This document shows positions 44,087 to 59,800 of a DNA stretch of 64,000 bases, one piece after another. This DNA comes from Treponema sp. (GTDB lineage: Bacteria > Spirochaetota > Spirochaetia > Treponematales > Treponemataceae). Positions within the stretch are counted from its first letter, which is position 1. Each line of letters opens with the position of its first letter. Under the pieces are notes generated by a model, which saw only the letters and a list, made by a program, of their open reading frames with translations, did no database searches and was not told the origin of the DNA. The DNA lies in assembly GCA_024693045.1 (NCBI GenBank), contig JAILLQ010000039.1, positions 1 to 64,000 on the forward strand. The letters are read 5' to 3'. A program made the position numbers and the translations under genes.

Positions 44087-44104
44087 AGTTAGCACTGTCT
44101 AACT
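44087..44104. promoter_or_regulatory. Regulon operator, copy 1
   Basis: AGTTAGC-ACTG-TCTAACT matches the palindrome AGTTAGC-N4-GCTAACT at 13 of 14 half-site positions. It lies 42 bases upstream of a perfect copy and between the exported-protein gene and the DUF3793 operon. Confidence 0.65.
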
Positions 44105-44140
44105 ACTTGATTTAAAGTATATTTATGAGTATAAATATAG

Positions 44141-44169
44141 TTGACAGTTAGCCAATGCTAACTTCCAAT
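44141..44169 (+). promoter_or_regulatory. Promoter of the DUF3793-flavodoxin unit
   Basis: A consensus -35, TTGACA (44141-44146), is followed by exactly 17 bases and a weaker -10, TCCAAT (44164-44169). The spacer is filled by the operator palindrome, so a bound repressor would block polymerase directly. Confidence 0.6.
44146..44163. promoter_or_regulatory. Regulon operator, copy 2 (perfect palindrome)
   Basis: AGTTAGC-CAAT-GCTAACT is a perfect 7-4-7 inverted repeat. It occupies the -35/-10 spacer of the promoter at 44141-44169. The same perfect palindrome is found before the mini-Fur gene at 56442. Confidence 0.8.
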
Positions 44170-44257: not shown

Positions 44258-44270
44258 CTGGAGGAAGGTG

Positions 44271-44849
44271 ATGAGTTTTGATCAGCTTGTTATGCAGTGT
44301 GGAGCTCCAGCCTTATGCGGAATAAAAAGTGCAAGTCTTTTTTCTATGAAATTGGATTTGTATGGTAATGGAAGCTGGAAGATAGGTGAATGGAATGAGT
44401 ACTTTGCATCTCAAGGTATTCATATTCTTCCTATACAAAAAAAAGACGGAAGAATGCTTCTTCTTGTATATAACAAGGAGATTCTAAAGGGCATTACTTC
44501 TGATAAGGCCGTAAGTTCTTATCTAAGGGGTAAAGGTTATCCTGTTGATAATGGCTTTGAAGCTGTTTTTCGCGAGTTTCTTTTTAGATTGATGGCTTAT
44601 AAATCATTCCCTCATGAAGCGGGAGTATTTTTAGGTTATCCATTAAAAGATGTAATTCAGTTCGAAATTAATGGTGGATGCGGCTTTAAATACTGCGGTT
44701 ACTGGAAGGTCTATGATGACATTGAAAGTGCAGTAAGTTTGATGGACAAATATAAAAAGTGCAGTTTGTTCTGTACGAGTTTGCTGCAGAAGGGGATTAC
44801 AGTTCCTCTTGCGGCGTGTAAATATAAGACTTTATATAAAGTTGCTTAA
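44271..44849 (+). CDS. DUF3793 protein
   Basis: This 192-residue cytoplasmic protein has the DUF3793 pattern. It starts with CGAPALCGIKSASLFSM near residues 10-26, continues with PHEAGVFLGYPLKDVIQFEIN in the middle and ends with CGYWKVYDD...YKKCSLFCTSLL. Several cysteines are conserved in character (Cys10, Cys16, then GGCGFKYCGYW). The function is not established; the family is often seen beside flavodoxins, which is also the case here. ATG at 44271 is chosen because GGAGG lies 6 bases upstream; the in-frame GTG at 44268 is less well spaced. It is predicted to be repressed through the AGTTAGC palindromes. Confidence 0.82.
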   Translation: MSFDQLVMQCGAPALCGIKSASLFSMKLDLYGNGSWKIGEWNEYFASQGIHILPIQKKDGRMLLLVYNKEILKGITSDKAVSSYLRGKGYPVDNGFEAVFREFLFRLMAYKSFPHEAGVFLGYPLKDVIQFEINGGCGFKYCGYWKVYDDIESAVSLMDKYKKCSLFCTSLLQKGITVPLAACKYKTLYKVA

Positions 44850-44862
44850 TTTGGAGGAAAAA

Positions 44863-45279
44863 ATGACAAAGGCAGTCGTATATTCAACAACAACAGGAAA
44901 TACAGAAGCAATGGCTAATGCTATTGCTAAGGGTGTAGAAGCAAGTGGAGCAGAACTTTATCTTGCTACAGCAGATTCTGCTGATGCTGCAAAGGTTCTT
45001 GCTTCAGATGTAATCATTCTTGGTAGTCCTGCTATGGGTGCTGAAGAAGTTGAAGAAACAATGGAAAACTTCTATACAGCTATCGAAGGTCAGCTTTCTG
45101 GAAAGAAAGTTGCTGTTTTCGGTTCATACGACTGGGGTGATGGCGAATGGCTCCGTTTGTGGAGAGACAGAATCGTTGCGGCTGGTGCTACAGTTATCAA
45201 CGATGATGGACTTGCCGGTCATTTGGATCCTGATGCTGATACAAAGGCAAAATGTGAAGAATTAGGAAAAACAGCCTAG
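44863..45279 (+). CDS. Flavodoxin (short-chain)
   Basis: This 138-residue FMN electron carrier can replace ferredoxin when iron is scarce. The phosphate-binding loop STTTGNT is at residues 8-14. The isoalloxazine-contact loops are near VIILGSPAMGAEEVEE (about 54-69) and FGSYDWGDGEWLRLW (about 86-100). The start used is ATG at 44863, 7 bases after TTGGAGG; an upstream in-frame extension inside the DUF3793 gene is not supported. It lies 13 bp after DUF3793, so the two form one operon under the palindromic operators. Confidence 0.93.
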   Translation: MTKAVVYSTTTGNTEAMANAIAKGVEASGAELYLATADSADAAKVLASDVIILGSPAMGAEEVEETMENFYTAIEGQLSGKKVAVFGSYDWGDGEWLRLWRDRIVAAGATVINDDGLAGHLDPDADTKAKCEELGKTA

Positions 45280-45488: not shown

Positions 45489-46265
45489 ATGAATATAGCA
45501 ACAATTTTGCTTATACCATTTCTTGGAACAACATTAGGTTCAGCTGCCGTATTTTTTCTTAAAGATGAACTTTCTGCATGGGTTCAAAAGATACTGCTTG
45601 GCTTTGCTTCTGGTGTGATGGTAGCAGCTTCTGTCTGGTCTTTGATTGTTCCATCTATTGAAAGTTGTCAGAGTATGGGAAAACTGGCTTTTTTACCAGC
45701 CGCTGTTGGCATACTAATTGGTATGTTTTTTCTTTATTCTCTGGATATGCTTACTCCTCACTTGCATTTGAATTCTGAAAAGCCAGATGGTCCTGTTTCA
45801 AAGCTAAAAAAGACTACAATGCTAGTTCTTGCTGTAACAATGCATAATATACCGGAAGGTATGGCTGTCGGTGTTGTTGCAGCTGGATTTATGAGCGGAA
45901 ATGCTCAAATTACCTTAGCAGGAGCCTTTGCTCTTTCTTTGGGAATTGCCATTCAGAATTTTCCTGAAGGAGCAATTATATCTCTTCCTTTGGCAAGTGA
46001 CGGAAATGGTAAACTTAAGTCCTTTGTTTATGGAACTCTTTCTGGTGTTGTAGAACCTCTCTTTGGGTTTCTTACTCTTTTGTTCGTAAGAGAAGTTGTT
46101 AGTATTTTGCCTTATCTTCTTTCTTTTGCCGCGGGAGCAATGCTTTTCGTAGTTGTAGAAGAACTTATCCCTGAAGCCAGTCAGGGGGAACATTCAAATT
46201 TTGCAACCGTAGGTTTTGGAATCGGTTTTGTCACAATGATGATTTTGGATGTTTGTCTTGGTTAG
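45489..46265 (+). CDS. ZIP-family metal transporter
   Basis: This 258-residue inner-membrane protein takes up divalent metals (zinc, iron or manganese). It has about eight hydrophobic segments. The metal-binding helices read VTMHNIPEGMAVGVV and IQNFPEGAIISLPLA, followed by VVEELIPEAS. This is the prokaryotic GufA-like ZIP pattern, without a long histidine loop (only PHLHLN). ATG at 45489 has GAGGT upstream; the in-frame TTG at 45486 is rejected. The operator for the next gene overlaps its stop codon. Metal specificity cannot be read from sequence, but the setting suggests iron or manganese. Confidence 0.9.
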   Translation: MNIATILLIPFLGTTLGSAAVFFLKDELSAWVQKILLGFASGVMVAASVWSLIVPSIESCQSMGKLAFLPAAVGILIGMFFLYSLDMLTPHLHLNSEKPDGPVSKLKKTTMLVLAVTMHNIPEGMAVGVVAAGFMSGNAQITLAGAFALSLGIAIQNFPEGAIISLPLASDGNGKLKSFVYGTLSGVVEPLFGFLTLLFVREVVSILPYLLSFAAGAMLFVVVEELIPEASQGEHSNFATVGFGIGFVTMMILDVCLG

Positions 46266-46277
46266 TATAGGCTAACT
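46260..46277. promoter_or_regulatory. Regulon operator before the TonB receptor
   Basis: GGTTAGT-ATAG-GCTAACT matches AGTTAGC-N4-GCTAACT at 12 of 14 half-site positions. It overlaps the ZIP stop codon and lies 71 bases before the receptor's start. Confidence 0.6.
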
Positions 46278-46348: not shown

Positions 46349-48406
46349 ATGAAACAGTTTAAGCGAATTATAAGAGGAGTGGGTTTTTCTGTTTTATTTT
46401 CAGGATTGTTATTTGCTCAGGATTTAAGTAGTCAAGATGAATTTATTGATGAAGATGATGTAATTGTTGTATCTGCAGGAAAAAGGGAAGAGTCTATTTC
46501 TGATGCTGTAGAAAAAGTGCAAGTTTTATCTTCTGATGATATCAAAGAAAGTGGGGCAAAAAATCTTTCAGAAGCTGTTAAAAATCTTCCCGGTTTAGTT
46601 ATAAAAGGACCTTCCGCTGGAAATCCAACAGATACAATTTCTATGCAGGGGTTCGACAGTGATTATGTAAAAATTTTGATTGATGGAATTTCAGTAACTG
46701 GTGATATCGGTGGCTCTGCTGCAGTTTTTCAAATTCCTGTAGAAAATATTGAACGAATTGAAATCGTGCAGGGGGCTAGTTCTGCCTTATATGGATCTGA
46801 TGCTATGGGCGGAGTTATTAATATAATAACTAAAAAGAATCCTTCAAGCGATCAGGGCATGAAATTTTCGGCTTCATTAAACGAAGAATACACTTATAAA
46901 ACTTTAAGTAAGAGTTACAGAAATTATAGCGCCGGTACTTTGAACTTTTCATTAAGTAAATTTTCTTCTTCTCTTACAGGAGCATTTGACTGGACTCCTG
47001 GAAGCAAGGATTACGAATATTTCGCTTTTGCAGGTGGATATTTAGATTACTACAAGACTGCAAAAAATCGTCTTTCTTGTGGACGATTTAATATGGACTG
47101 GAATGACTGGTGGGGTAAAGCCTCTGTTTTTGTTTCATTTGCAGATTCTATACTTGAAAGTAACTATACAGCTATTGGCTTTGATACTGGCTCTAAAATG
47201 TCTTATCTATGCCGCCGCTTGGAAGCTGGAATCACTGGGGAATATGAATACAGTGAAAAGTTAAACTTTTCTGCCTTTTCGAGTGTAAAGAATTTTCAGC
47301 TTGAAACAGATTATGAACACTTTGCCATAAAAGAAAATACTTCATACCTTGCAAAAGAAAATACGGTAACTGATTCTGATTTTATTGACTGGGAAAGCGA
47401 AATCCGTTCTTCCTGGAAATTAAATTCATTTGCAGATTTTCTTTTTGGTTTGAACTGCAATCTTCAGACTGTAGATGGAGATTCTTTTGAAGACAGAGAA
47501 AAGAATCTTTTGATTTCTGCTTTCTTCCAGGATACACTGGACTTTTCAACAATAAATTTGTCTTTAGTTCCCGGCCTGCGCTTTGATTTTGCTCCAGAAA
47601 TGGGTGAAAGTGATGCTAGTTTTATGGCAACTCCTAAATTAAGCTTAAAATATTCACCTTCAAAAGAAAGTGTTTTAAGGTTTTCATACGGAATGGGATA
47701 TAAAATTCCTACTTTGAAGCAAAAATACTGGGTTTTTTATCATAATTATGCTTCTGGAGAAGGAAATTTTATTCTTAATGGAAATCCTGATTTGGAAAGC
47801 GAAAAATCTCAGAGCGTAAATCTGTCATTTGAAAAGCATTTGTTTGAAGACTGGAAATTGAACGCCTCTGCTTATTTTAATTACATTCAAGACCTTATTG
47901 ACAGTGAAGTTACAGATGCAAACTCTAATCCTCAGACAAGAAGTTATGTGAATATAGGAAAGGCTCTAACTTATGGTGGAGATTTTTCTATTTCATTTAA
48001 GAAAAATGATTTTACAGCCAGAGCCGGATACGCTTATACCGGGGCTAAAGCTTTTAACGATGACCAGGATGAATGGCAGGATCTTTCTTTAAGAGTTACA
48101 CACAGGCTGACAATGAATATTTCCTATTTTATCCCTGTTCTGCAAGGAAAAATTTCAATGGATGCTCAATGGAACAGCCGACAGCTGCTTTCAACCGGTG
48201 GAGACCAATACAGTCCTGATTTTCTGATGCTTTCTTTAAATCTTACTAAAACTTTCTTTGAAGAAAAGTTAGAAGTCTATCTTCGGGCGGATAACCTTTT
48301 GAACAATTTGCATTTTATGAATGCTAGTGATGGGTCTAATCAAAAGGAATATTACAATTTGTACGATGGCACCTGTCTTAGTTTTGGCGCAAGAATTAAG
48401 TTTTAA
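46349..48406 (+). CDS. TonB-dependent outer-membrane receptor
   Basis: This 685-residue receptor has a signal peptide (1-23, ending LLFAQ), a TonB-box-like DDVIVVSA at 36-43, a plug domain at about 45-165 (SISDAVEKVQVLSSDDIKESG; LIDGISVTG; IERIEIVQGASSALYGSDAMGGVINIIT) and a 22-strand-type barrel ending SFGARIKF. The plug resembles siderophore, haem and vitamin B12 receptors; the ligand is unknown. No Shine-Dalgarno is evident. It is followed after 17 bp by a lipoprotein gene. A regulon palindrome upstream and TonB/ExbBD genes nearby support a metal-linked uptake role. Confidence 0.92.
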   Translation: MKQFKRIIRGVGFSVLFSGLLFAQDLSSQDEFIDEDDVIVVSAGKREESISDAVEKVQVLSSDDIKESGAKNLSEAVKNLPGLVIKGPSAGNPTDTISMQGFDSDYVKILIDGISVTGDIGGSAAVFQIPVENIERIEIVQGASSALYGSDAMGGVINIITKKNPSSDQGMKFSASLNEEYTYKTLSKSYRNYSAGTLNFSLSKFSSSLTGAFDWTPGSKDYEYFAFAGGYLDYYKTAKNRLSCGRFNMDWNDWWGKASVFVSFADSILESNYTAIGFDTGSKMSYLCRRLEAGITGEYEYSEKLNFSAFSSVKNFQLETDYEHFAIKENTSYLAKENTVTDSDFIDWESEIRSSWKLNSFADFLFGLNCNLQTVDGDSFEDREKNLLISAFFQDTLDFSTINLSLVPGLRFDFAPEMGESDASFMATPKLSLKYSPSKESVLRFSYGMGYKIPTLKQKYWVFYHNYASGEGNFILNGNPDLESEKSQSVNLSFEKHLFEDWKLNASAYFNYIQDLIDSEVTDANSNPQTRSYVNIGKALTYGGDFSISFKKNDFTARAGYAYTGAKAFNDDQDEWQDLSLRVTHRLTMNISYFIPVLQGKISMDAQWNSRQLLSTGGDQYSPDFLMLSLNLTKTFFEEKLEVYLRADNLLNNLHFMNASDGSNQKEYYNLYDGTCLSFGARIKF

Positions 48407-48423
48407 AATTGAGGTTTATGAAA

Positions 48424-49326
48424 ATGAAAAAAATTTACACTGTATTACTTTTATTATTCAGCCTTTTAGCTTATTCATGCTCGTCTGACTCAGAAAAGCC
48501 TTTATATTTGCCTGTCTACTCTCTGGAAGCTATTCAGGGCTATTCTTATTCAACAACTTTTACTTCCTCGTCGGGCAACGAACTTTCTCCTGAACTTACG
48601 ATTTATGATTCAAAACACTTGTGTTGGAATATGTCTACTTCCATGGGGGCGGTAAATTTCTTTTATATAGCAGAAAAGGATTCCTTTTTAAATGTTTGGA
48701 CTCTTTACTGGTTTTCAAGCGAAGCTAGCATGGAAAGTAGAGATACTTCAAAAGCACTTATGGCCGTAAAAATAGGAATCAATTCTTATGAAAGTATCAG
48801 TCTGCTTGTTTTGCCTTCCTCATCTTCCAGCAGCATGAGTGGAACTTCTTTAACTATGAATCTTTCTTCGTTTGTAAAAAAAACTTATACATCTTCTTCA
48901 AATTCTTCAGAAAGTCAAAATGAAGAAGAAATAAGTGTATCAGGAAGCTCTTGTGACTGGTTTGAAGATTCTTCAACTTTTAATGGAACTTTTACTTATT
49001 CTGTATCAGGATCTCAAAATGGAAGTGATAATGCAAATCTTTTAGTAAGAAAAACTTCAACAGGGAAGGTTAGTGTAACAATTCCTTCTTATTCTGCAAT
49101 GGGATACACGATTGAATCCTACCAGATAGAGGGAGTCAATGTTACTAAAGACACAGATACTTACTATTTATCTATTGGGGAATGTTCTGTAAACAGTGGG
49201 TCTTATGTAATTCACATAGAATCTTTTGTTGCAAAATACAAAGATGGAGTTTTTTCTTCTTCTTTGATTTTCAGACCAGGCGCTATGCCTCTGTCTATTA
49301 AACAAGTATTTAGAGGAAATAAATAA
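48424..49326 (+). CDS. Lipoprotein downstream of the TonB receptor
   Basis: This 300-residue lipoprotein has the lipobox LAYSC with Cys19. The first half has a beta-rich pattern (IQGYSYSTTFTSSSGNELS), then a Ser/Asn/Glu-rich linker at about 150-175. The C-terminal half (FNGTFTYSVSG...VSVTIPSYSAMGYTIESYQIEGVNV) has the look of calycin-like or lipocalin-like small beta-barrels, a weak inference. ATG at 48424 is preferred, 8 bases after GAGGT; in-frame TTG at 48409 and ATG at 48418 are less well spaced. Being directly after the receptor, it may be a ligand-capturing partner. Confidence 0.75.
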   Translation: MKKIYTVLLLLFSLLAYSCSSDSEKPLYLPVYSLEAIQGYSYSTTFTSSSGNELSPELTIYDSKHLCWNMSTSMGAVNFFYIAEKDSFLNVWTLYWFSSEASMESRDTSKALMAVKIGINSYESISLLVLPSSSSSSMSGTSLTMNLSSFVKKTYTSSSNSSESQNEEEISVSGSSCDWFEDSSTFNGTFTYSVSGSQNGSDNANLLVRKTSTGKVSVTIPSYSAMGYTIESYQIEGVNVTKDTDTYYLSIGECSVNSGSYVIHIESFVAKYKDGVFSSSLIFRPGAMPLSIKQVFRGNK

Positions 49327-50303: not shown

Positions 50304-51089
50304 ATGAAAAAGATTTTTCCAGCTCTTGCTTCAGTTATATTAGTTCTGTCTGGGCTTATTTCCTGTTCCACTAGTTCAGATGACTCTTCATCTCTTATTT
50401 CAACTTATTATACTGCTTTGATGCAAAACACTGTCACTTATGATGATTACAATCTGTCAAAATTTTTTGCTACATACACGAGTGACGAAAAATCTATTAC
50501 AGTTACATATAACTCTGTTTCTGTCGATTCAACTGTTTACAACTATGTATACTGGTTTAAGTCTTCTGAAGGAAATTATCTTGCAGCCTGCCAGTCGGCT
50601 TCAACTCATATTTCAAAAGGTGCTATGTCGTCGTATTCTCTTTCAAATTGTGATTTTGCTCTCACTTTTTCAGGATATGGAAAGGCTTCATATTCTGCAG
50701 AGGCTCTTACTCAACCAGTAGAATATAAAAAGACCTACAATAAATCTGATTTTACAGGAACTTATACAGGTAGGCTTACAGATAAAAATGGAGTTACAGA
50801 AGATATTACAGTAGTCATTTCAGACTCTTCTGCAATATTTACTGGAACTACTACAGGGACTAATTTGGGAACTTGTGATAAATCTACTAAATGGTTATGT
50901 GATAAGGATAATCAGGTAATTTTTGCAGTTCAGACTACAAACATAAACGAAGGAGTAGATGTTACAGAAAGCAATTACACAAGTGTTTCTTCTGCTTACT
51001 TTATTTTTTATGAAAGCGGTTATGCAACTTTAGTTATCCCTACTATGACAGAAATTCTTAAGGAAAATACTAAACTTACAAAAAATTAG
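50304..51089 (+). CDS. Second lipoprotein of the tandem-repeat family
   Basis: This 261-residue lipoprotein has lipobox LISC with Cys21. It carries two domains related to those of the previous gene. The first is about 50-145 (YNYVYWFKSSEGNYLAACQSAS; NCDFALTFSGYGKASY). The second is about 155-261 (FTGTYTGRLTDKNGV; KWLCDKDNQVIFAVQTT; NYTSVSSAYFIFYESGYATLVIPTM). The first domain is the more degenerate. The start is ATG at 50304 with GAGG 8 bases upstream; an in-frame extension to 50271 lacks support. It sits behind a terminator, so it may have its own promoter. It overlaps the convergent tonB stop by 4 bp. Confidence 0.75.
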   Translation: MKKIFPALASVILVLSGLISCSTSSDDSSSLISTYYTALMQNTVTYDDYNLSKFFATYTSDEKSITVTYNSVSVDSTVYNYVYWFKSSEGNYLAACQSASTHISKGAMSSYSLSNCDFALTFSGYGKASYSAEALTQPVEYKKTYNKSDFTGTYTGRLTDKNGVTEDITVVISDSSAIFTGTTTGTNLGTCDKSTKWLCDKDNQVIFAVQTTNINEGVDVTESNYTSVSSAYFIFYESGYATLVIPTMTEILKENTKLTKN

Positions 51090-51715
51090 GATTGTTCAAG
51101 TCTAAAGTCCATAGCGAATACAAAATCCAGCGGTTTTTCTAATTCTGCTGGCATTTTTTTAAATGGAGATGCCTTTTTTACAGAGTTAAGGGCTGCTTGG
51201 TTTAAAAGAATGTGAGAAGATTCTTTTACAATTTCTAAAATTTCAAGAGAACCGTCTGTATCTATCTTTAAGTGGATTTTGACTCTTCCTTCATGCCCCT
51301 TTGCTCTTTCGCTTGCAGGGTAGACTTTTCTTGATGCAATACGGTTTAATACATAAGCCTTGTAAGTGTTGAAAGCCTTTTCCGCTTTTTCATTTAATAT
51401 TTCGTCACTTCCTTCGGATTCTTCATTTGATTCATTTTCTTCTGTGCTTTCGATTTCTTTTTTTATTTCTTCCTGAGCTTTATTTTGTGAGGAAATGTTT
51501 TCTTTTTCTTGAACTTTGTTTTCTTTCTGCTTTTCTTTTAAAATCTTTTTTGGAGCAGATTTTTTTACAGTTATGAAAGAAATTTCGGCACTCTGATGAA
51601 CAGATTCTTTTATTTCTTTTTGCCTGTAATTAAAAAAAGGCATAAAAATCATGATGAGACTTATTGCCATCGTAATTAGAAAACTCAGGCAATAACGTTT
51701 ATTCAGACTGCTCAT
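51086..51715 (-). CDS. tonB: TonB-family energy-transducing protein
   Basis: This protein of about 209 residues has one N-terminal membrane helix (LSFLITMAISLIMIFMPF). A long Lys/Glu-rich periplasmic linker follows (about 50-110, KENKVQEKENISSQNK), in place of the classical Pro-Lys region. The C-terminal TonB domain starts at about residue 120 (VYPASERAKGHEGRVKIHLKIDTDGSLEILEIVKES). It transmits inner-membrane energy to the outer-membrane receptor. ATG at 51715 is used, with AGGA 8 bases upstream; the TTG at 51721 is rejected. It overlaps exbD. Confidence 0.9.
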   Translation of the reverse strand: MSSLNKRYCLSFLITMAISLIMIFMPFFNYRQKEIKESVHQSAEISFITVKKSAPKKILKEKQKENKVQEKENISSQNKAQEEIKKEIESTEENESNEESEGSDEILNEKAEKAFNTYKAYVLNRIASRKVYPASERAKGHEGRVKIHLKIDTDGSLEILEIVKESSHILLNQAALNSVKKASPFKKMPAELEKPLDFVFAMDFRLEQS

Positions 51716-52109
51716 GAACAATTCCTATTCGGTTTATACCAGAATTTTGCACTTTTGTAAGTATTTGTACAACACGCTCAAAATCAACCGATTTTTCACA
51801 TTCTAAGGATATTGAAAGTTCTGGATTCATTTCTTTAGCTTCCTGTAAAACTCCTTCTAGATTTTCTATACTGCAAGACTGGCCGTCAAAGCTTATTTCT
51901 TCCCTGTTTACTGCTAGCACTTTTACTTTGTTGGATTCTTCCTTACTGGTGTCTTCACATTCAGGTAAATCAAGAGGAAGTGAATTCTTTTTGAATTGGG
52001 TACTTACCATAAAGAATATGAGAAGGATAAAAATAACATCAATCATACTGGTTATGTTTATGGAAAGTTCTTCTTCTTTATCTATTAGTTTACGCAGAAA
52101 TTCAGGCAT
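51699..52109 (-). CDS. exbD: ExbD-family proton-channel subunit
   Basis: This protein of about 136 residues has a single membrane helix with the essential aspartate (SINITSMIDVIFILLIFFMVST), followed by a periplasmic domain (VLAVNREEISFDGQ...GINRIGIVHEQ). With ExbB it forms the proton-driven motor that powers TonB. ATG at 52109 has TTGAGGA upstream. It starts 1 bp after the exbB stop and overlaps tonB by 17 bp. Confidence 0.92.
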   Translation of the reverse strand: MPEFLRKLIDKEEELSINITSMIDVIFILLIFFMVSTQFKKNSLPLDLPECEDTSKEESNKVKVLAVNREEISFDGQSCSIENLEGVLQEAKEMNPELSISLECEKSVDFERVVQILTKVQNSGINRIGIVHEQSE

Positions 52110-52110
52110 T

Positions 52111-52638
52111 TTATTCCTCAATAAGAGCTTCTTCTGCGAGTAAACCTATTTTCATTAGTCGTTTTTCAATTATTCTTTTAAAAGTTCTGTAGAAGAAAAG
52201 AGCTGGGATAGAAATTATCATTCCAAAAGCTGTTGTAAGCATTGCTTCCCATATACCGCCAGAAAGGTCTTGAATATTTATCTGACTGCCTGCATTTGAC
52301 ATTCCCTTGAAGGCACTGATTAGTCCTGTTACAGTTCCTAATAACCCTAGAGAAGGTGCAACTGCTGAAATAAAGTTAATAAGCCACATTCCTCTATTCA
52401 TTTCGTAGTAAAGTAGGGTCGATTCTTTTTCTACTTCTTTTTTCATTTCTTTTCTATTTTTACTTTTGTTCTTTTCGATGGTCTTTTGCATTCTTTTCAG
52501 GTAATTTTTATTTTGAGAATGAAAAGTTTCCATAAAGTAAATAATTCTTTCTATGCAGAGAATTAGACATAGCAATAACATGGCTGTTAAAACCCAGTTT
52601 ACCGGTCCGCCTAAATTGATAAGATTTATAAGTTTCAT
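52111..52638 (-). CDS. exbB: ExbB/TolQ-family proton-channel subunit
   Basis: This 175-residue protein has three membrane helices (about 12-33, 85-110 and 128-155) and the MotA/TolQ/ExbB signature AVAPSLGLLGTVTGLISAFKGM...GIWEAMLTTAFGMIISIPALFFY. The short N-terminus is typical of compact ExbBs. It lies between a DUF454 gene (4 bp overlap) and exbD. Its dedicated placement with the ABC pair and the TonB receptor argues for ExbB rather than TolQ. Confidence 0.92.
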   Translation of the reverse strand: MKLINLINLGGPVNWVLTAMLLLCLILCIERIIYFMETFHSQNKNYLKRMQKTIEKNKSKNRKEMKKEVEKESTLLYYEMNRGMWLINFISAVAPSLGLLGTVTGLISAFKGMSNAGSQINIQDLSGGIWEAMLTTAFGMIISIPALFFYRTFKRIIEKRLMKIGLLAEEALIEE

Positions 52639-53045
52639 TTGTCGGCTTCCTCCTTTACTTCCTTAATTGTTTTAATACAAGTGAAGAAGTAAACATATTT
52701 TATTGCAATTAAAATCAAAACTGTTATGCGTCCAATTCTTGTACCCATTGTATCTTTTTTGCACATTCCTAGAAAGGCACATAGCAGCATTATCGAAGCT
52801 GGAATTAAAATTGAAAGTTTTGTTTTTAAAGTCATGGCTCTGTTTTCTACAAAGTTTTCAAGATGATTTTTATAGATTTTTGTTTCTTTGAACCAGGCGT
52901 CAAGCCTGCTGGATCCTTTTGCAAAACAAATTGCTGCAAGCAGTAAAAAAGGTGTTGTCGGTAGCAGAGGTAATGGAATGCCTGCTACTCCCAGTCCCAA
53001 AGCGATAAAACCTAATAGAATCCAAAATGGTTTTAAAATTTTCAT
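52635..53045 (-). CDS. DUF454 (YbaN-type) inner-membrane protein
   Basis: This 136-residue protein starts with the DUF454 signature FWILLGFIALGLGVAGIPLPLLPTTPFLLLAAICFAKGS, and two to three more hydrophobic segments follow (about 80-97 and 107-124). The family's biochemical role is not established. The gene overlaps the ABC gene upstream and exbB downstream by 4 bp each, so it belongs to the uptake operon. Confidence 0.85.
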   Translation of the reverse strand: MKILKPFWILLGFIALGLGVAGIPLPLLPTTPFLLLAAICFAKGSSRLDAWFKETKIYKNHLENFVENRAMTLKTKLSILIPASIMLLCAFLGMCKKDTMGTRIGRITVLILIAIKYVYFFTCIKTIKEVKEEADK

Positions 53046-54655
53046 GATTTTCTTCCTGTTTGTAATTTATATATTTTATCTGCATGAATGAATGTTGAGT
53101 CCCGGTGGCTTACGATGACTATAGTCTTTCCTTCACTTTCAGCTTTTACAGTATCCATTATTGCCTTTTCGTTGTAGGAATCCAAATTGCTTGTAGGCTC
53201 ATCTAGTAAAATAAAGTCCCCCTGATGCAAGAAAATTCTTGCAAGTCCCAGTCTCTGTCTTTCCCCGCTGGAAAAATTTTCACCGAGTTCTGAAACTTTG
53301 CTCTCATATCCTTCTGGAAGCGACTCTATCAAATCGTGTATCTCTGCCTTTCTGCAAGCTTCTTCGATTTCTTCATCACTTGCTTCCAGCCGGGCAAGGC
53401 GAATGTTTTCTCTTATTGTGTCGTGGAACAATACTGTTTCCTGGGATATGTAGCTTTCTATTTTTTTCAGGTTACTTGAATTTACATGCCTTATGTCTGT
53501 TTCAGAAAGGCTTATCTTACCTGAATTAACTTCCCAAAAGTGCATAAAAAGCTTTAAAAGTGTGGATTTGCCGGAACCACTTTTACCTTGTATGCCGATA
53601 ATTTTTCCTTTTTCAAAATCCATACTAAGATTTTGTAAAATTTCTTCTTTTTCAGTGTATGAAAAATTAATTTTATCAGCTTTTGCACCTGTAAAATAAA
53701 TTTCCTTTCCTCCCTTTATTTCTTCAACTAAAGCTTTTTCGTCCAAAAGGGATAAAACTCTTTTTCCGCTGGCTATAGTTTGACTTAATCCACTAGAAAG
53801 ATTTGCAAGAGCCAGACAAGGTCCAAATGAACTGAACATTAAAGTTATACTGATTAGAGCTTGTGAAAAAGTAATTAAATTATGCCTGTAAAGAATTAGT
53901 GACAGGATGAGCATTGCAATACCTGCCAGGGAAACGAATAAAGCACTCAATAAAGAATTTAAACCTTCGTTTCTAGACATTTTTCTGTGTTCCCGGCTAA
54001 GAAAATCGCTTTTTTCATTAAGTTTTGCTAGTTTTTTTTCTCCCTGTCCGTATAAAATGGAAATTACAAGACCTCTCAAGGTGTCCAAAAGAAGGCTATT
54101 CATATCTGAAAAAACTTTTCGATATTCTGTGGCAGTTTTTTCAGCTTTTTTACCGATTAAAAGGGGAATTCCTGCGGCTACTAATAGATAGAAGACTCCT
54201 GCCAAGAGGGCCAGATAAATATTAAAAGTCGACAGTAAGAGGCATGAAGCTAAACTTACTGTAATAGCTATGCATATAGGACTAAGAGTGTGAGCATAGA
54301 AAACTTCAAGGAGTTCTATATCTGAAGTAATCAACTGTATAAGAGAGCCTTTTTCTTTACATTCAATTTTTGCCGGTCCAAGATTTCTTAGTTTCTTAAA
54401 AACTATAGAGCGTATTCTAGCCAAAAGGGTAAAAGCTATAAAATGATTGCAGTACTGTTCGGCGTAATGAAGTATGCCTCGTAAAATTCCTGCTATAAAT
54501 AATATATATAAAGGAAATTTATAAAAAATTGCACTTACCCCAAGAAGAGGTATGCTTATTGCACATATAGACCCCAAGGAGCCAAATATAATCGCTAAGC
54601 ACAAGACCGGTAAAAGGGGTAGAACAAGTTTTGTCAGTCTAAAAAGAGTTTTCAT
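53042..54655 (-). CDS. ABC transporter permease-ATPase, second half of pair
   Basis: This 537-residue protein has six membrane helices (about 1-290) and a nucleotide-binding domain (about 310-537). Walker A is GKSGSGKSTLLKLF and Walker B FILLDEPTSNLD, and the switch His is in VSHRDS. The signature reads FSSGERQRLGLAR instead of LSGGQ, while the catalytic Glu is kept. The fold is the type IV (exporter-like) class, as in CydDC but also in the siderophore importers YbtPQ and IrtAB. It overlaps its partner by 4 bp, so a heterodimer is likely. Transport direction cannot be read directly; see findings. Confidence 0.88.
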   Translation of the reverse strand: MKTLFRLTKLVLPLLPVLCLAIIFGSLGSICAISIPLLGVSAIFYKFPLYILFIAGILRGILHYAEQYCNHFIAFTLLARIRSIVFKKLRNLGPAKIECKEKGSLIQLITSDIELLEVFYAHTLSPICIAITVSLASCLLLSTFNIYLALLAGVFYLLVAAGIPLLIGKKAEKTATEYRKVFSDMNSLLLDTLRGLVISILYGQGEKKLAKLNEKSDFLSREHRKMSRNEGLNSLLSALFVSLAGIAMLILSLILYRHNLITFSQALISITLMFSSFGPCLALANLSSGLSQTIASGKRVLSLLDEKALVEEIKGGKEIYFTGAKADKINFSYTEKEEILQNLSMDFEKGKIIGIQGKSGSGKSTLLKLFMHFWEVNSGKISLSETDIRHVNSSNLKKIESYISQETVLFHDTIRENIRLARLEASDEEIEEACRKAEIHDLIESLPEGYESKVSELGENFSSGERQRLGLARIFLHQGDFILLDEPTSNLDSYNEKAIMDTVKAESEGKTIVIVSHRDSTFIHADKIYKLQTGRKS

Positions 54656-56304
54656 AGAGCAAGCTCCCTGCAGTTACTTTCTACTGGACTTTTTACAGTT
54701 TCAAAAGTGTAGATTTTGTCGGAATCTTCACAGTTTTCCTTACGGTGGCTTATCATGATTATAGTTTTTTCACCTTTTAAGGAATGCAAGAGATTTAATA
54801 TTATTTTTTCACTTTCAACATCTACGTTTGACGTTGCTTCATCAAAAATCATTACCTTTGGGGAAGAAAGAAGGGCTCTGGCAATTGATAATCTCTGTTT
54901 TTGTCCGCCACTCAGATTGGAAGCGTTTTCAAGTATTTGGGTATCAAGTCCATTTCTTTCCATTATAAAATCTTTTAGATTTACTTTTTCAAGAGCTTCG
55001 AACAATTCCCTTTCACTTGCATCTGCTTTTCCTTCAAGCAGAGTATCCTTTACACTTCCTTTGAAAATCCAGTCACGGCTTGAAATATAGGCTATATTTG
55101 AAAAAAGAGCTTTTCTTTGAATAGAAGAAACTTCTTTTCCGAATATTTTTACACTCCCTGAATATGATGTGTTTATACCGCAGAGAATTTTTGCCATGGT
55201 AGACTTACCGGAACCACTTTTACCCACAAATACCGTAAAACTTCCTTTTGGAATTTTTATATTTGCATTTTTTATAACGATTCTGTCTTTAAACTTGTAG
55301 GAAGTGTTTATGCATTCAAAAAAGTTACTTTCATTTTCCTTTGGAAAGGATTCATTTCCGTCACTTTCTTCTTCTGTTTCTAAAAGAGTAAAAATTTCTT
55401 TTGCTGCTGTACTCCCATTCAATGCAGTATGAAAAAGACTTCCTAATCTTCTTAAGGGGATAAAAAAGTCGGCACAAATCAGTATAGATGCAAATGAATA
55501 AGCCAGGCTGAGATTTCCAGCCCTATATGCAGTAATAGCCTCTATGATTCCTAGTGCAGCTCCTCCATAGGCAATTATATCCATAATAATAATAGAATTT
55601 AGTTGCATTGAAAGAACTTTCATTGTTACCCGACGAAAATTATCAGCTTGATTTTCCATCTGTTTTTGCTTATAAGAGTCAGCTTCATAGATTTGAAGGG
55701 TCGTAAGTCCCTGTAGGTTTTCAAGAAAATTGTCTGCTAGATTTTCATATTGAATCCAGTATTTTGAAAGAAGTTTTTTTGCAATCGTTTGTACCAGAGC
55801 AATTGAAATCGGGATAAGAGGAATGCAGAGAAAAAGTATAAGAGCCATTTTCAAATTCAAAAAGGCAAGAATTACAAAAGTAATCAATGCTGCGGTCATA
55901 CTGTAAAAAAACTGGGGCAGGTAAGAGCCGAACCATACTTCCAGTTGTTCAACGCCTTCAACAGTCAATTGAATTACTTTAGCCGTTTCAAGTTTTTCCT
56001 GGTAATAGTTACCAATTTTCAGGAGTTTTTGGTAAATTTTACTCCTTAGTAGTTTTTTTACGCTTTTAGAACTGTTGTGGCTTTGAATAGCCGCAAAGTA
56101 ATTTGAAAGACAGGAAAAGATTAGTGCAAAAAGAAAAACAATGATTTCTGCAAATATATCTTTACCTTTTTTATTGATTACACTTGAAACTGCGAAAATT
56201 AGACTCGTATTTGAAATAAGAGCAAGAATTTTTAACAGAACCGTTATTAGAACGTGTTTTTTTGCCTGAGGAAGCAGGTTTATGAGTTTTTTGTTTAACA
56301 TCAC
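54652..56304 (-). CDS. ABC transporter permease-ATPase, first half of pair
   Basis: This 550-residue protein has a six-helix membrane domain (about 15-300) and a nucleotide-binding domain (about 330-550). Walker A is FVGKSGSGKSTMAKIL, the signature NLSGGQKQRLSIARALL, Walker B VMIFDEATSNVD, and the switch His is in ISHRKEN. All catalytic motifs are canonical, unlike the signature in its partner. It is the first gene of the operon with the second ABC protein, the DUF454 protein, exbB, exbD and tonB. It is divergent from the mini-Fur gene, with the palindromic operator between them. Confidence 0.88.
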   Translation of the reverse strand: MMLNKKLINLLPQAKKHVLITVLLKILALISNTSLIFAVSSVINKKGKDIFAEIIVFLFALIFSCLSNYFAAIQSHNSSKSVKKLLRSKIYQKLLKIGNYYQEKLETAKVIQLTVEGVEQLEVWFGSYLPQFFYSMTAALITFVILAFLNLKMALILFLCIPLIPISIALVQTIAKKLLSKYWIQYENLADNFLENLQGLTTLQIYEADSYKQKQMENQADNFRRVTMKVLSMQLNSIIIMDIIAYGGAALGIIEAITAYRAGNLSLAYSFASILICADFFIPLRRLGSLFHTALNGSTAAKEIFTLLETEEESDGNESFPKENESNFFECINTSYKFKDRIVIKNANIKIPKGSFTVFVGKSGSGKSTMAKILCGINTSYSGSVKIFGKEVSSIQRKALFSNIAYISSRDWIFKGSVKDTLLEGKADASERELFEALEKVNLKDFIMERNGLDTQILENASNLSGGQKQRLSIARALLSSPKVMIFDEATSNVDVESEKIILNLLHSLKGEKTIIMISHRKENCEDSDKIYTFETVKSPVESNCRELAL

Positions 56305-56441
56305 ATTATTCCATTATTCTGTATCATCTCTCAATAGAAGAATATTTATTCCAAAGTTTTTAGTCAAAAGGCTTTTGATAAAAAATGGGACAAAATCTCA
56401 AATTTAATTCTCATTAAGATATTGACTATTTTTTATTTAAA

Positions 56442-56459
56442 AGTTAGCCTTAGCTAACT
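56442..56459. promoter_or_regulatory. Regulon operator between the ABC/TonB operon and mini-Fur
   Basis: AGTTAGC-CTTA-GCTAACT is a perfect 7-4-7 palindrome, extendable by one A/T pair. It is immediately followed by a TATATT (56462-56467) suitable as -10 for the mini-Fur gene. Its position in the divergent intergenic region would allow control of both units. Confidence 0.8.
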
Positions 56460-56496
56460 TATATATTAAGTAAACTTTTTTGAAAGAGGTGATGTC

Positions 56497-56733
56497 ATGA
56501 GTGAAAAGTATAATGAAATCATTCTTGCCTTCAAAAATAAAGGCTGTCGTATTACAGAGCAGCGTAAAAACCTGCTTACAATCATACTTAAAAATCCGGG
56601 CTGTTCATGTAAAGAATTGTATTACATGGCAAAACAGGCTGACGGAGAGATCGGAAGAGCTACAGTTTACAGAACCGTACATTCTCTTGAAGAATTAGGA
56701 TTTGTTCAGAAAAAAAGTGTAGTTATTTGCTAA
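56497..56733 (+). CDS. Mini-Fur: Fur-family winged-helix domain without the metal-binding C-terminal half
   Basis: This 78-residue protein matches the N-terminal domain of Fur/PerR regulators (about 80 of the usual 140 residues): IILAFKNKGCRITEQRKNLL, then the recognition region IGRATVYRTVHSLEELGFV. It stops at the wing, so the dimerisation domain with the usual His/Cys metal sites is absent. This is not an obvious truncation: AGAGGTG precedes the ATG, and a perfect hairpin follows the stop within 6 bases. Cysteines at 17, 36, 38 and 78 (the last residue) could form a metal, Fe-S or thiol sensor; that is inference. The upstream operator suggests autoregulation. Confidence 0.85.
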   Translation: MSEKYNEIILAFKNKGCRITEQRKNLLTIILKNPGCSCKELYYMAKQADGEIGRATVYRTVHSLEELGFVQKKSVVIC

Positions 56734-56738
56734 GCTGT

Positions 56739-56776
56739 AAGGCAGTTTCTATAAGAAACTGCCTTATTCATTTTAA
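56739..56776 (+). terminator. Hairpin after mini-Fur
   Basis: A 12-bp perfect stem AAGGCAGTTTCT/AGAAACTGCCTT has a 3-base loop. The following T tract is interrupted (ATTCATTTT), so termination may be partial. Confidence 0.75.
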
Positions 56777-56822: not shown

Positions 56823-59800
56823 ATGAGTTACAAAGCAGTAGATTCTAAAGTAGACTTCCCAACACAGGAAGAAGAAGTATTAAAGTTTTGGCAGGACAAC
56901 GATATTTTCAAAAAGTCCGTGAGTCAGCGCGAGGGTGCTGAAGAATTCGTATTTTATGACGGTCCTCCGTTTGCAACAGGACTTCCTCATTTTGGTCATT
57001 TTATTCCATCTACTATTAAAGATATTATTCCTCGTTACCAGACAATGAAAGGAAAGAAGGTTGAAAGACGTTTTGGTTGGGACTGTCATGGTCTTCCTGT
57101 TGAAAACCTTATTGAAAAAGAACTCGGAATTAACTCTAAACACGAAATTGAAGAATACGGAATCGATAAATTTAACGACAAGTGCCGTGATTCTGTTTTA
57201 AAATACGCCTCAGAATGGCGCAAAACAATTACCCGCATGGGTCGTTGGGTTGATTTTGACAACGACTACAAAACAATGAATCCAGACTATATGGAATCAA
57301 TCTGGTGGGTTGCTAAGTCTCTTTGGGATAAGGGGCTTATTTATGAAGGAAAGTATATTCTTCCTTATTGTCCTCGCTGTTCAACAGTTCTTTCTACACA
57401 TGAACTTGCACAGGGGTATAAAGATGTTCAGGATGCAACTGTTACAGTTCGTTTTAAGATTACTAAGGCTCCTGCAGGTGTAAAAGACGCAGATATGGCT
57501 AATGGTAATACTTATTTCCTTGCCTGGACAACAACTCCTTGGACTCTTCCTTCAAACCTTGGACTTTGTATGGGTCCAGATATCGATTATGTAAAAATTC
57601 TCGACAAGGAAAGTGGTGATTACTACATTTTTGCAGAAGCTCGTCTTTCCGCTTATTATAAAGAAGAAAAAGACTATGAAATTATCTACCGTGCTAAAGG
57701 AAAGGATTTTGTAGGTGCAAGATATGAACCTCTTTTCCCTTACTTTGCAAAATATGCTGATCCTGCTGTTTGTCAGGCTGATTCTAATCAGACTTGCAAA
57801 GAAGGTGCTTTCCGCATGTTCAATGCAGACTATGTTTCAACTGAAGACGGTACTGGTATTGTTCATATCGCACCTGCTTTTGGTGAAGAAGATAATAAAG
57901 TATTCCTTGGCTCAGGAGTTCCAAACGTAGAGCCAATTGATGCTGAATGTAAATTTACTAAAGAAGTTCCAGATTATCAGGGTATCTTTGTAAAAGACGC
58001 AGATAAGGCTATTATTCAGCGCCTCAAGGAAGAAAAGAAACTTGTAAAGAGAGACACAATTGTTCACTCTTATCCTCATTGTTGGAGATGTTCTTCACCA
58101 CTTATTTATCGAGGAATTGGTTCTTGGTTTGTAAAAGTACAGGATCATCATGAAGGTCTTTTAAAGGCAAACAGTCAGATTAAGTGGCAGCCTGCCCATA
58201 TAAAGGAAGGTCGTTTTGGTAAATGGCTTGCTGGTGCTCGCGACTGGGCAGTTAGCCGCAACCGTTACTGGGGTAACCCAATTCCTATCTGGAAGTGTGA
58301 TAATCCAGATTGTAAAAATGTATTGTGCGTAGGAAGTAGAGAAGAACTTAAAGAACTTTCTGGAGTTTATCCTGAAGATTTGCACAAGCAGTATGTTGAT
58401 AAGATTACTATTCCTTGTAAGAAATGCGGTGGTACTATGCACCGTATTCCTGAAGTATTTGACTGTTGGTTTGAATCTGGTTCTATGCCTTATGCACAGC
58501 AGCATTATCCATTTGAAAACAAGGACTATTTTGAAAAGCATTTCCCTGCAAACTTTATTTCTGAAGGTCTTGATCAGACACGCGGTTGGTTCTACACACT
58601 TACTGTTCTTGCAAGCCATCTTTTTGATAAGCCAGCATTTGAAAATTGTGTTGTAAACGGTCTTGTTTTAGCTTCTGATGGTCGCAAGATGAGTAAATCT
58701 CTTCGTAACTACACAGATCCTGTTGAAGCAATTAATAAATTTGGTGCAGATGCCCTTCGTCTTTTCTTGATTCATTCTCCTGTCGTAATGGCAAATGACT
58801 TGCGTTACAGCGATGAAAGTGTTCGTGAAGTAATTAAAACTATTATTCTCCCTTTGTGGAACAGTTACAGTTTCTTTGTTACTTATGCAAATATTGACGG
58901 TGTAACTCCTGATGGTCATCTTTTTGACAAGAAATTGCCTTCAAATCCTCTTGATGCATGGCTTCTTTCTATAACACAGAAGCTTATTAAAGATGTTACA
59001 AGTGGACTTGAAGATTACGATTTGAGCGGTGCTGTTGATCCTATTGTAAAGTACATCGATGAAATGAATAACTGGTATATTCGCCGAAGCAGACGTCGTT
59101 TCTGGAAGAGTGAAAATGATTCTGATAAAAAAGAAGCTTATGAAGCTCTTTATATCGCTTTGAAAACTTTCAGTCAGGTTGCATGTCCTTTTATTCCATT
59201 TATTACTGAGGAAATGTGGCAGAACTTAAAAACTTCTTCAGACAAGGAATCAGTTCATCTTAGCGATTATCCTCTTTACAATGAAAAATTTAGAGATGAA
59301 GAACTTGAATTCAAGATGGAAACAGTTCAGAAAGCTGTATCTATGGGAAGAAGTTTAAGAAATACTTACAACTTGAAAAATCGTCAGCCTTTAGCTTCCG
59401 TTGCACTTGTAACTCGTAATCAGGAAGAAAAAAGAGTTCTCGCTGAAATGGAAGATTCTATTCGCGAAGAACTTAATGTTAAAAAAGTTGAATTTCATGA
59501 TAGGGAAGATGAACTTGTTGAATACAGATGTAAAGCAAACTTCAAGGTATTAGGAAAAGAACTTGGACCTAAGATGAAGGCTGCTGCTGCAATAATTCAG
59601 ACTCTTTCTTCTGAACAGATTCAGTCAATCCTTGAAGGAACAAAACTTTCTATCGATGTTGACGGCTTGTCAGTTGAATTAGGTGAAGAAAAACTTATTA
59701 TTGAACGACTTGAAAAAGACGGATTAAAAGTTTTGAACGATGGAACTCTTACAGTTGGTCTCGATTCTAAGATTTCTGACGAACTTAAGAAGGAAGGTTA

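Follow-up and report, generated by a model that had tools for sequence, protein, structure and literature searches.

Some Treponema genomes carry a genuine, conserved gene for a stand-alone Fur-type DNA-binding domain, which we call mini-Fur; it is not a chance open reading frame. The representative described here is encoded in a stretch of 64,000 nucleotides from Treponema sp. (assembly GCA_024693045.1, contig JAILLQ010000039.1), referred to below as the window. Judged from sequence, mini-Fur looks like a member of a regulon defined by an iron-type box, and it mostly occurs in genomes that also have one TonB/ExbBD/ABC transport cassette.

A Fur DNA-binding domain without a sensor half

The mini-Fur gene occupies positions 56497..56733 of the forward strand, starts with ATG and encodes a protein of 78 amino acids, MSEKYNEIILAFKNKGCRITEQRKNLLTIILKNPGCSCKELYYMAKQADGEIGRATVYRTVHSLEELGFVQKKSVVIC; it was assigned from its Pfam FUR match, PDB matches and orthologues. 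An earlier note on this DNA had described a finished gene with a ribosome-binding site and a hairpin, and the elements it named are all there. The open reading frame is preceded by a good ribosome-binding site with the Shine-Dalgarno sequence AGAGGTGA (56485..56492, forward strand), and 3' of the stop codon there is a terminator-like stem-loop of 14 pairs with a loop of 3 (56737..56767, forward strand). The next gene is a class I tRNA synthetase, ileS by sequence, which starts at 56823, 90 bp past mini-Fur. This leaves no space for a Fur C-terminal domain, and no C-terminal Fur remnant was found downstream of mini-Fur at the locus.

In the textbook view, a Fur protein senses metal and is built of two domains. 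Mini-Fur aligns with the Pfam FUR profile, which has 121 positions, over positions 2–62 only (E 2.3e-13; 50.8 bits, curated cut-off 23.1), and it scores far under all of the NCBIfam equivalog cut-offs for Fur, PerR, Zur and Irr. The Fur chains of Bacillus cereus, Escherichia coli and Vibrio cholerae in the PDB align with it in their N-terminal ~75 residues only. The C-terminal dimerisation domain with its metal ligands is absent, the Pfam match stopping at 62 of 121 positions and the orthologues at 78–94 amino acids, which bears out the original description of a Fur DNA-binding domain lacking the metal-binding and dimerisation half. One metal-ligand histidine is normally found in the loop between helices 2 and 3; this loop is missing, the QHI of V. 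cholerae Fur lying opposite a three-residue gap in mini-Fur. The remaining Fur metal ligands all sit in the half that mini-Fur lacks. With both the C-terminal domain and the histidine-bearing loop lost, mini-Fur has no canonical metal site.

An AlphaFold model of mini-Fur, built on an alignment of five sequences, shows four helices with good confidence, followed by a tail of low certainty (mean pLDDT 83.5, residues 74–78 below 50). The match to Fur as far as the wing, noted earlier, thus agrees with the model, in which helices 1–4 are well modelled and the last ~5–10 residues have low confidence. The 50 best Foldseek matches to the model are Fur-, PerR-, Zur- or Mur-type chains or constructs containing Fur, with TM scores of up to 0.79. 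Among full-length proteins, the best BLAST matches come from elsewhere in Treponema (members of the Fur family) and from a different family of spirochaetes (a Fur of canonical appearance), with an identity of only about 35–42%; the three full-length Fur-family proteins of the window's own genome are not among them.

Twelve residues are invariant in 20 of 20 orthologues: G16, R18, T20, Q22, K39, E40, Y43, T56, V57, Y58, R59 and L64. These include the recognition-helix motif of Fur, TVYR (T56-V57-Y58-R59). All 20 also have hydrophobic residues at positions 69, 70, 75 and 77 (F69, V70, V75 and I77 in the window protein), so the tail is under constraint. From this hydrophobic pattern, its one basis, the tail could be a very short wing, which is absent from the AlphaFold model. 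The four cysteines are much less well conserved. Cysteine is present at position 17 in six, at 36 in eight, at 38 in ten and at 78 in five of the 20 orthologues, and a C-x-C at 36/38 is found in eight, mostly nearer kin of the window protein. Six orthologues contain no cysteine at all, yet they have the same helices and the same link to the cassette.

A conserved family in Treponemataceae

A profile built from eight members was run on 200 genomes of the GTDB genus Treponema, in a search for homologues of similar length. It found 21 intact mini-Fur members and one decayed copy. The members are separated by a clear gap in score (E <= 5e-20) from all other matches (E >= 6e-12), and the top weaker match is the broken copy, in genome G172. 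This copy (G172:C2 349013–349239; loci L090 and L145) has an in-frame TAA and a change of frame, and still adjoins an ABC/ExbBD/TonB cassette. A wider search of 296 spirochaete genomes from 138 genera added a single member, in genome G477 of a sister genus; among the genomes searched, the family is therefore found only within Treponemataceae. Apart from the mini-Fur members and the G172 remnant, the spirochaete matches listed are frames of at least 136 amino acids, the size of full-length proteins.

Mini-Fur is 78–94 amino acids long in the 20 members read over their full length; the 21st, in genome G091, is known as a matched segment only. For unsaturated pairs dN/dS is ~0.02 to 0.3, clearly below 1. 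The genes downstream of mini-Fur vary among members and include ileS, the transhydrogenase alpha subunit, exbB and others without relation to these, which means that no local break accounts for the short form. The genomes are mostly draft assemblies of varying completeness, that of the window being 91% complete and 4% contaminated, and absences of genes are accordingly soft. We found no description of short Fur proteins lacking the C-terminal domain in the literature searched, which left most subscription journals outside.

Association with a TonB/ExbBD/ABC cassette

The immediate neighbours of mini-Fur are a divergent ABC/ExbBD/TonB operon and, downstream, ileS. The operon lies on the reverse strand. 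It begins with two exporter-type ABC half transporters (Pfam/NCBIfam), one CydD-like and below the CydD cut-off (54652..56304), the other CydC-like and below the CydC cut-off (53042..54655). These are followed by a DUF454 membrane protein (52635..53045, Pfam E 5e-33) and by Pfam matches to the ExbB-type proton channel of the cassette (52111..52638), ExbD (51699..52121) and TonB (51086..51721). Further away on the forward strand are a TonB-dependent outer-membrane receptor (46349..48406, Pfam E 8.8e-31), a DUF3793 protein (44268..44849, Pfam E 1.2e-42) and a flavodoxin (44863..45279, Pfam E 6e-19). The flavodoxin-type genes had been named as a flank of mini-Fur; they are not adjacent to it, lying ~11 kb upstream (44268–45279). 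Right after the receptor gene the window encodes a calycin-like beta-barrel protein (48409–49326), a place taken by lipoprotein-like genes in relatives.

The link to an uptake operon proved real and stronger than was first claimed. A dedicated ExbB, defined by a close orthologue set (E <= 4e-58, next match 1.6e-21), is present in 22 of the 200 genomes. It occurs in 16 of the 22 genomes with mini-Fur or its remnant, versus 6 of the 178 others (Fisher p 3e-14, uncorrected for phylogeny). Six genomes thus have the ExbB cassette but no mini-Fur, and in six others mini-Fur is present without the dedicated ExbB, which indicates that mini-Fur is neither strictly needed by the cassette nor strictly dedicated to it. 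In the six genomes with ExbB and apparently no mini-Fur, the stretches examined contained no hidden copy beside ExbB.

The gene order differs between genomes. The window, G076 and G198 share a divergent arrangement of mini-Fur, box and ABC-ABC-DUF454, and in other genomes the order is mini-Fur-exbB-exbD-tonB-receptor. Genes at the relatives' loci were taken from a longest-ORF script, and some families (exbB-type and lipoprotein genes among them) were assigned by eye, without Pfam. A YgbA_NO protein is often found within the relatives' cassette (L138 4533–4868 by Pfam; L143, L145, L202 and L211 by eye); the window's cassette is without one.

The palindrome belongs to a genus-wide iron-type box

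Between mini-Fur and the divergent ABC operon is a 20-bp inverted repeat (56441–56460) with perfect 8-bp arms and a 4-bp spacer, which contains the box GTTAGCCTTAGCTAAC (56443..56458). Its core is GTTAGC-N4-GCTAAC, and the genus-wide form is GTTAGY-N4-RCTAAC. Four sites with at most three mismatches to the palindrome are present in the window, against 0.5 expected. The others are a box with one mismatch (44088..44103) and a further box (44147..44162), both before the DUF3793-flavodoxin genes, and a box before the TonB-dependent receptor gene (46261..46276). The pair at 44088–44162 is spaced 59 bp apart, and pairs are also present before feoAB (C27) and FTR1 (C50) in the window's genome.

Across the 200 genus genomes there are 793 sites matching GTTAGYNNNNRCTAAC, and 69 for the reversed control. 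The 178 genomes without mini-Fur contain 719 of them (reversed control 55; mean 4.0 per genome) and the 22 with mini-Fur or a remnant contain 74 (mean 3.4 per genome), so that the frequency of the box does not differ with the presence of mini-Fur (Mann-Whitney p 0.83). At two mismatches the box is uninformative, with 48 sites versus 112 in the control. In the window's genome the box precedes mini-Fur and the ABC genes, the DUF3793-flavodoxin genes, the TonB receptor, feoAB, FTR1, an ABC exporter gene, the transhydrogenase alpha gene and a nitrogenase-like/periplasmic-binding-protein cluster. In this last cluster (G000:C51 8839; L137 519–4840) the box stands before a NifH-like gene, two nitrogenase-component-1-type genes and a periplasmic binding protein, all by Pfam. 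Genome G100, which lacks mini-Fur, has eleven boxes in ~42 kb (G100:C1 951211–992945), an iron island whose genes were assigned by eye as transporters, FeoA/FeoB-like, DUF3793-like and flavodoxin.

The palindrome is unlike Fur and PerR boxes. No classical Fur or PerR box was found at the mini-Fur locus, and no 7-1-7 Fur box with up to four mismatches overlaps the palindrome. The literature searched, which left out most subscription journals, contained no description of such an iron-type box in Treponema. The earlier observation of a perfect inverted repeat adjoining mini-Fur holds. Its reading as a site specific to mini-Fur is not supported, since the box is equally common without mini-Fur and has links to feoA and to a gene of the DtxR family. 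The box is a genus-wide iron-type site and probably no private operator of mini-Fur.

Mini-Fur itself appears to belong to the genes under this box. A box with at most one mismatch is present within 150 bp upstream of mini-Fur in 12 of 20 orthologues, and one with two mismatches in five more, a level barely beyond that of shuffled sequence. In G143 and G156 mini-Fur lies inside an operon with a one-mismatch box at its head; the strict box count is zero in G143, G156 and G131.

A DtxR-family protein as the candidate reader of the box

The box adjoins DtxR and feoA genes independently of mini-Fur, which makes a DtxR-type repressor its likeliest reader on comparative grounds, with mini-Fur as one of the targets. 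In genome G026 three copies separate feoA from a gene of the DtxR family, a DtxR gene is directly 3' of feoAB near a box cluster in G128, and in G100 a DtxR gene is found ~1.5 kb before the box cluster. The DtxR family (PF01325) is matched in 185 of the 200 genomes, and in that of the window the sole gene found is G000:C50:151738, for a protein of 120 amino acids. Against this assignment, no DtxR-family gene was detected in G020, a genome 95% complete that has mini-Fur and boxes, nor in several less complete genomes that carry boxes.

In T. denticola the DtxR-family protein TroR is an Mn/Fe-dependent repressor of metal uptake (PMC2628430). Its published operator, located upstream of troA, is a dyad of 18 bp (PMC2628430), which we do not equate with the genus box. 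The DtxR/IdeR/TroR proteins (PF01325, PF02742) have no homology to mini-Fur.

Proposed mechanism and alternatives

We suggest that mini-Fur is a Fur winged helix that has lost the metal-binding and dimerisation half and, by alignment, the histidine-bearing loop, and that it would sense no metal itself. The response to iron may instead be handed to transcription, through the box GTTAGY-N4-RCTAAC in the mini-Fur promoter region. When Fe(II) is plentiful a short DtxR-family repressor would most likely occupy the box, as its association with such genes suggests. Iron starvation would lift the repression, and mini-Fur would be made along with the TonB/ExbBD/ABC cassette. Isolated Fur DNA-binding domains are expected to bind DNA weakly, and mini-Fur may bind through its TVYR recognition helix either with low affinity or through some dimer contact, tuning the cassette by activation or repression. 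No operator specific to mini-Fur was found. We regard this account, of a DtxR-controlled, metal-blind second-tier regulator of the cassette, as evenly poised between right and wrong. That mini-Fur is a Fur descendant split from its sensor, with metal sensing passed to a DtxR-type repressor and the bare domain acting on the cassette as a monomer or by a new dimer contact, is a plausible if tentative proposal.

Two observations speak for a mini-Fur that itself binds GTTAGC-N4-GCTAAC and regulates its own gene: most orthologues have the box immediately upstream despite their differing neighbours, and G020 has both box and mini-Fur with no detected DtxR-family gene. Such autoregulation is nevertheless unlikely, as the box is just as frequent in the genomes without mini-Fur, adjoins DtxR and feoA genes, and does not resemble the sites of Fur or PerR. 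We consider an antagonist role similarly improbable, in which mini-Fur, blind to metal, would compete or pair with full-length Fur-family proteins through operator occupancy or protein contact. The conserved TVYR motif and the three full-length Fur-family genes of the window's genome speak for this role, and iron-repressed expression would suit an anti-repressor; but mini-Fur lacks the domain through which Fur proteins dimerise, its nearest full-length matches share only about 35–42% identity with it and include none of those three proteins, and the locus yielded no Fur/PerR-type box.

It had also been suggested that Cys17, Cys36, Cys38 and Cys78 sense the signal, and a metal site, an Fe-S cluster or a thiol switch could in principle replace the lost half. 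The C-x-C retained mostly in closer relatives speaks for this idea, which we find very improbable: none of the four positions is conserved across the orthologues, and with some members free of cysteine such sensing cannot be general. That mini-Fur is merely a full-length fur gone wrong, by decay to a pseudogene, by a frameshift or in the assembly, has a precedent in the decayed copy of G172, and the chance is close to nil. The 21 intact orthologues keep the short form in various neighbourhoods under purifying selection, with no C-terminal remnant downstream, and this conserved short length refutes the error reading; relatives encoding full-length Fur in its place, which would have pointed to a sequence error, were looked for and did not appear.

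Comparison with known regulators

Mini-Fur shares helices 1–4, the TVYR recognition helix and an association with genes of the iron-uptake type with Fur (PF01475), and differs in the absent dimerisation and metal domain, the deleted histidine loop and a shorter tail where Fur has its wing. PerR, Zur and Mur have the same DNA-binding fold and are two-domain proteins, unlike the mini-Fur family. Irr is a Fur-family regulator that is active when iron is scarce, and is full-length and heme-sensing; mini-Fur has no sensor domain, and its likeness to Irr and to two-tier iron cascades is one of analogy only.

A family reduced to the Fur DNA-binding domain, inside what appears to be the iron-type regulon of another repressor, shows that a sensor can lose its sensing half and still be retained. 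Mini-Fur offers a small model for Fur DNA-binding domains that work without dimerisation, and the box, its targets and the candidate repressor provide a regulon map for iron uptake in Treponema. The named relatives are ruminant-associated Treponema MAGs.
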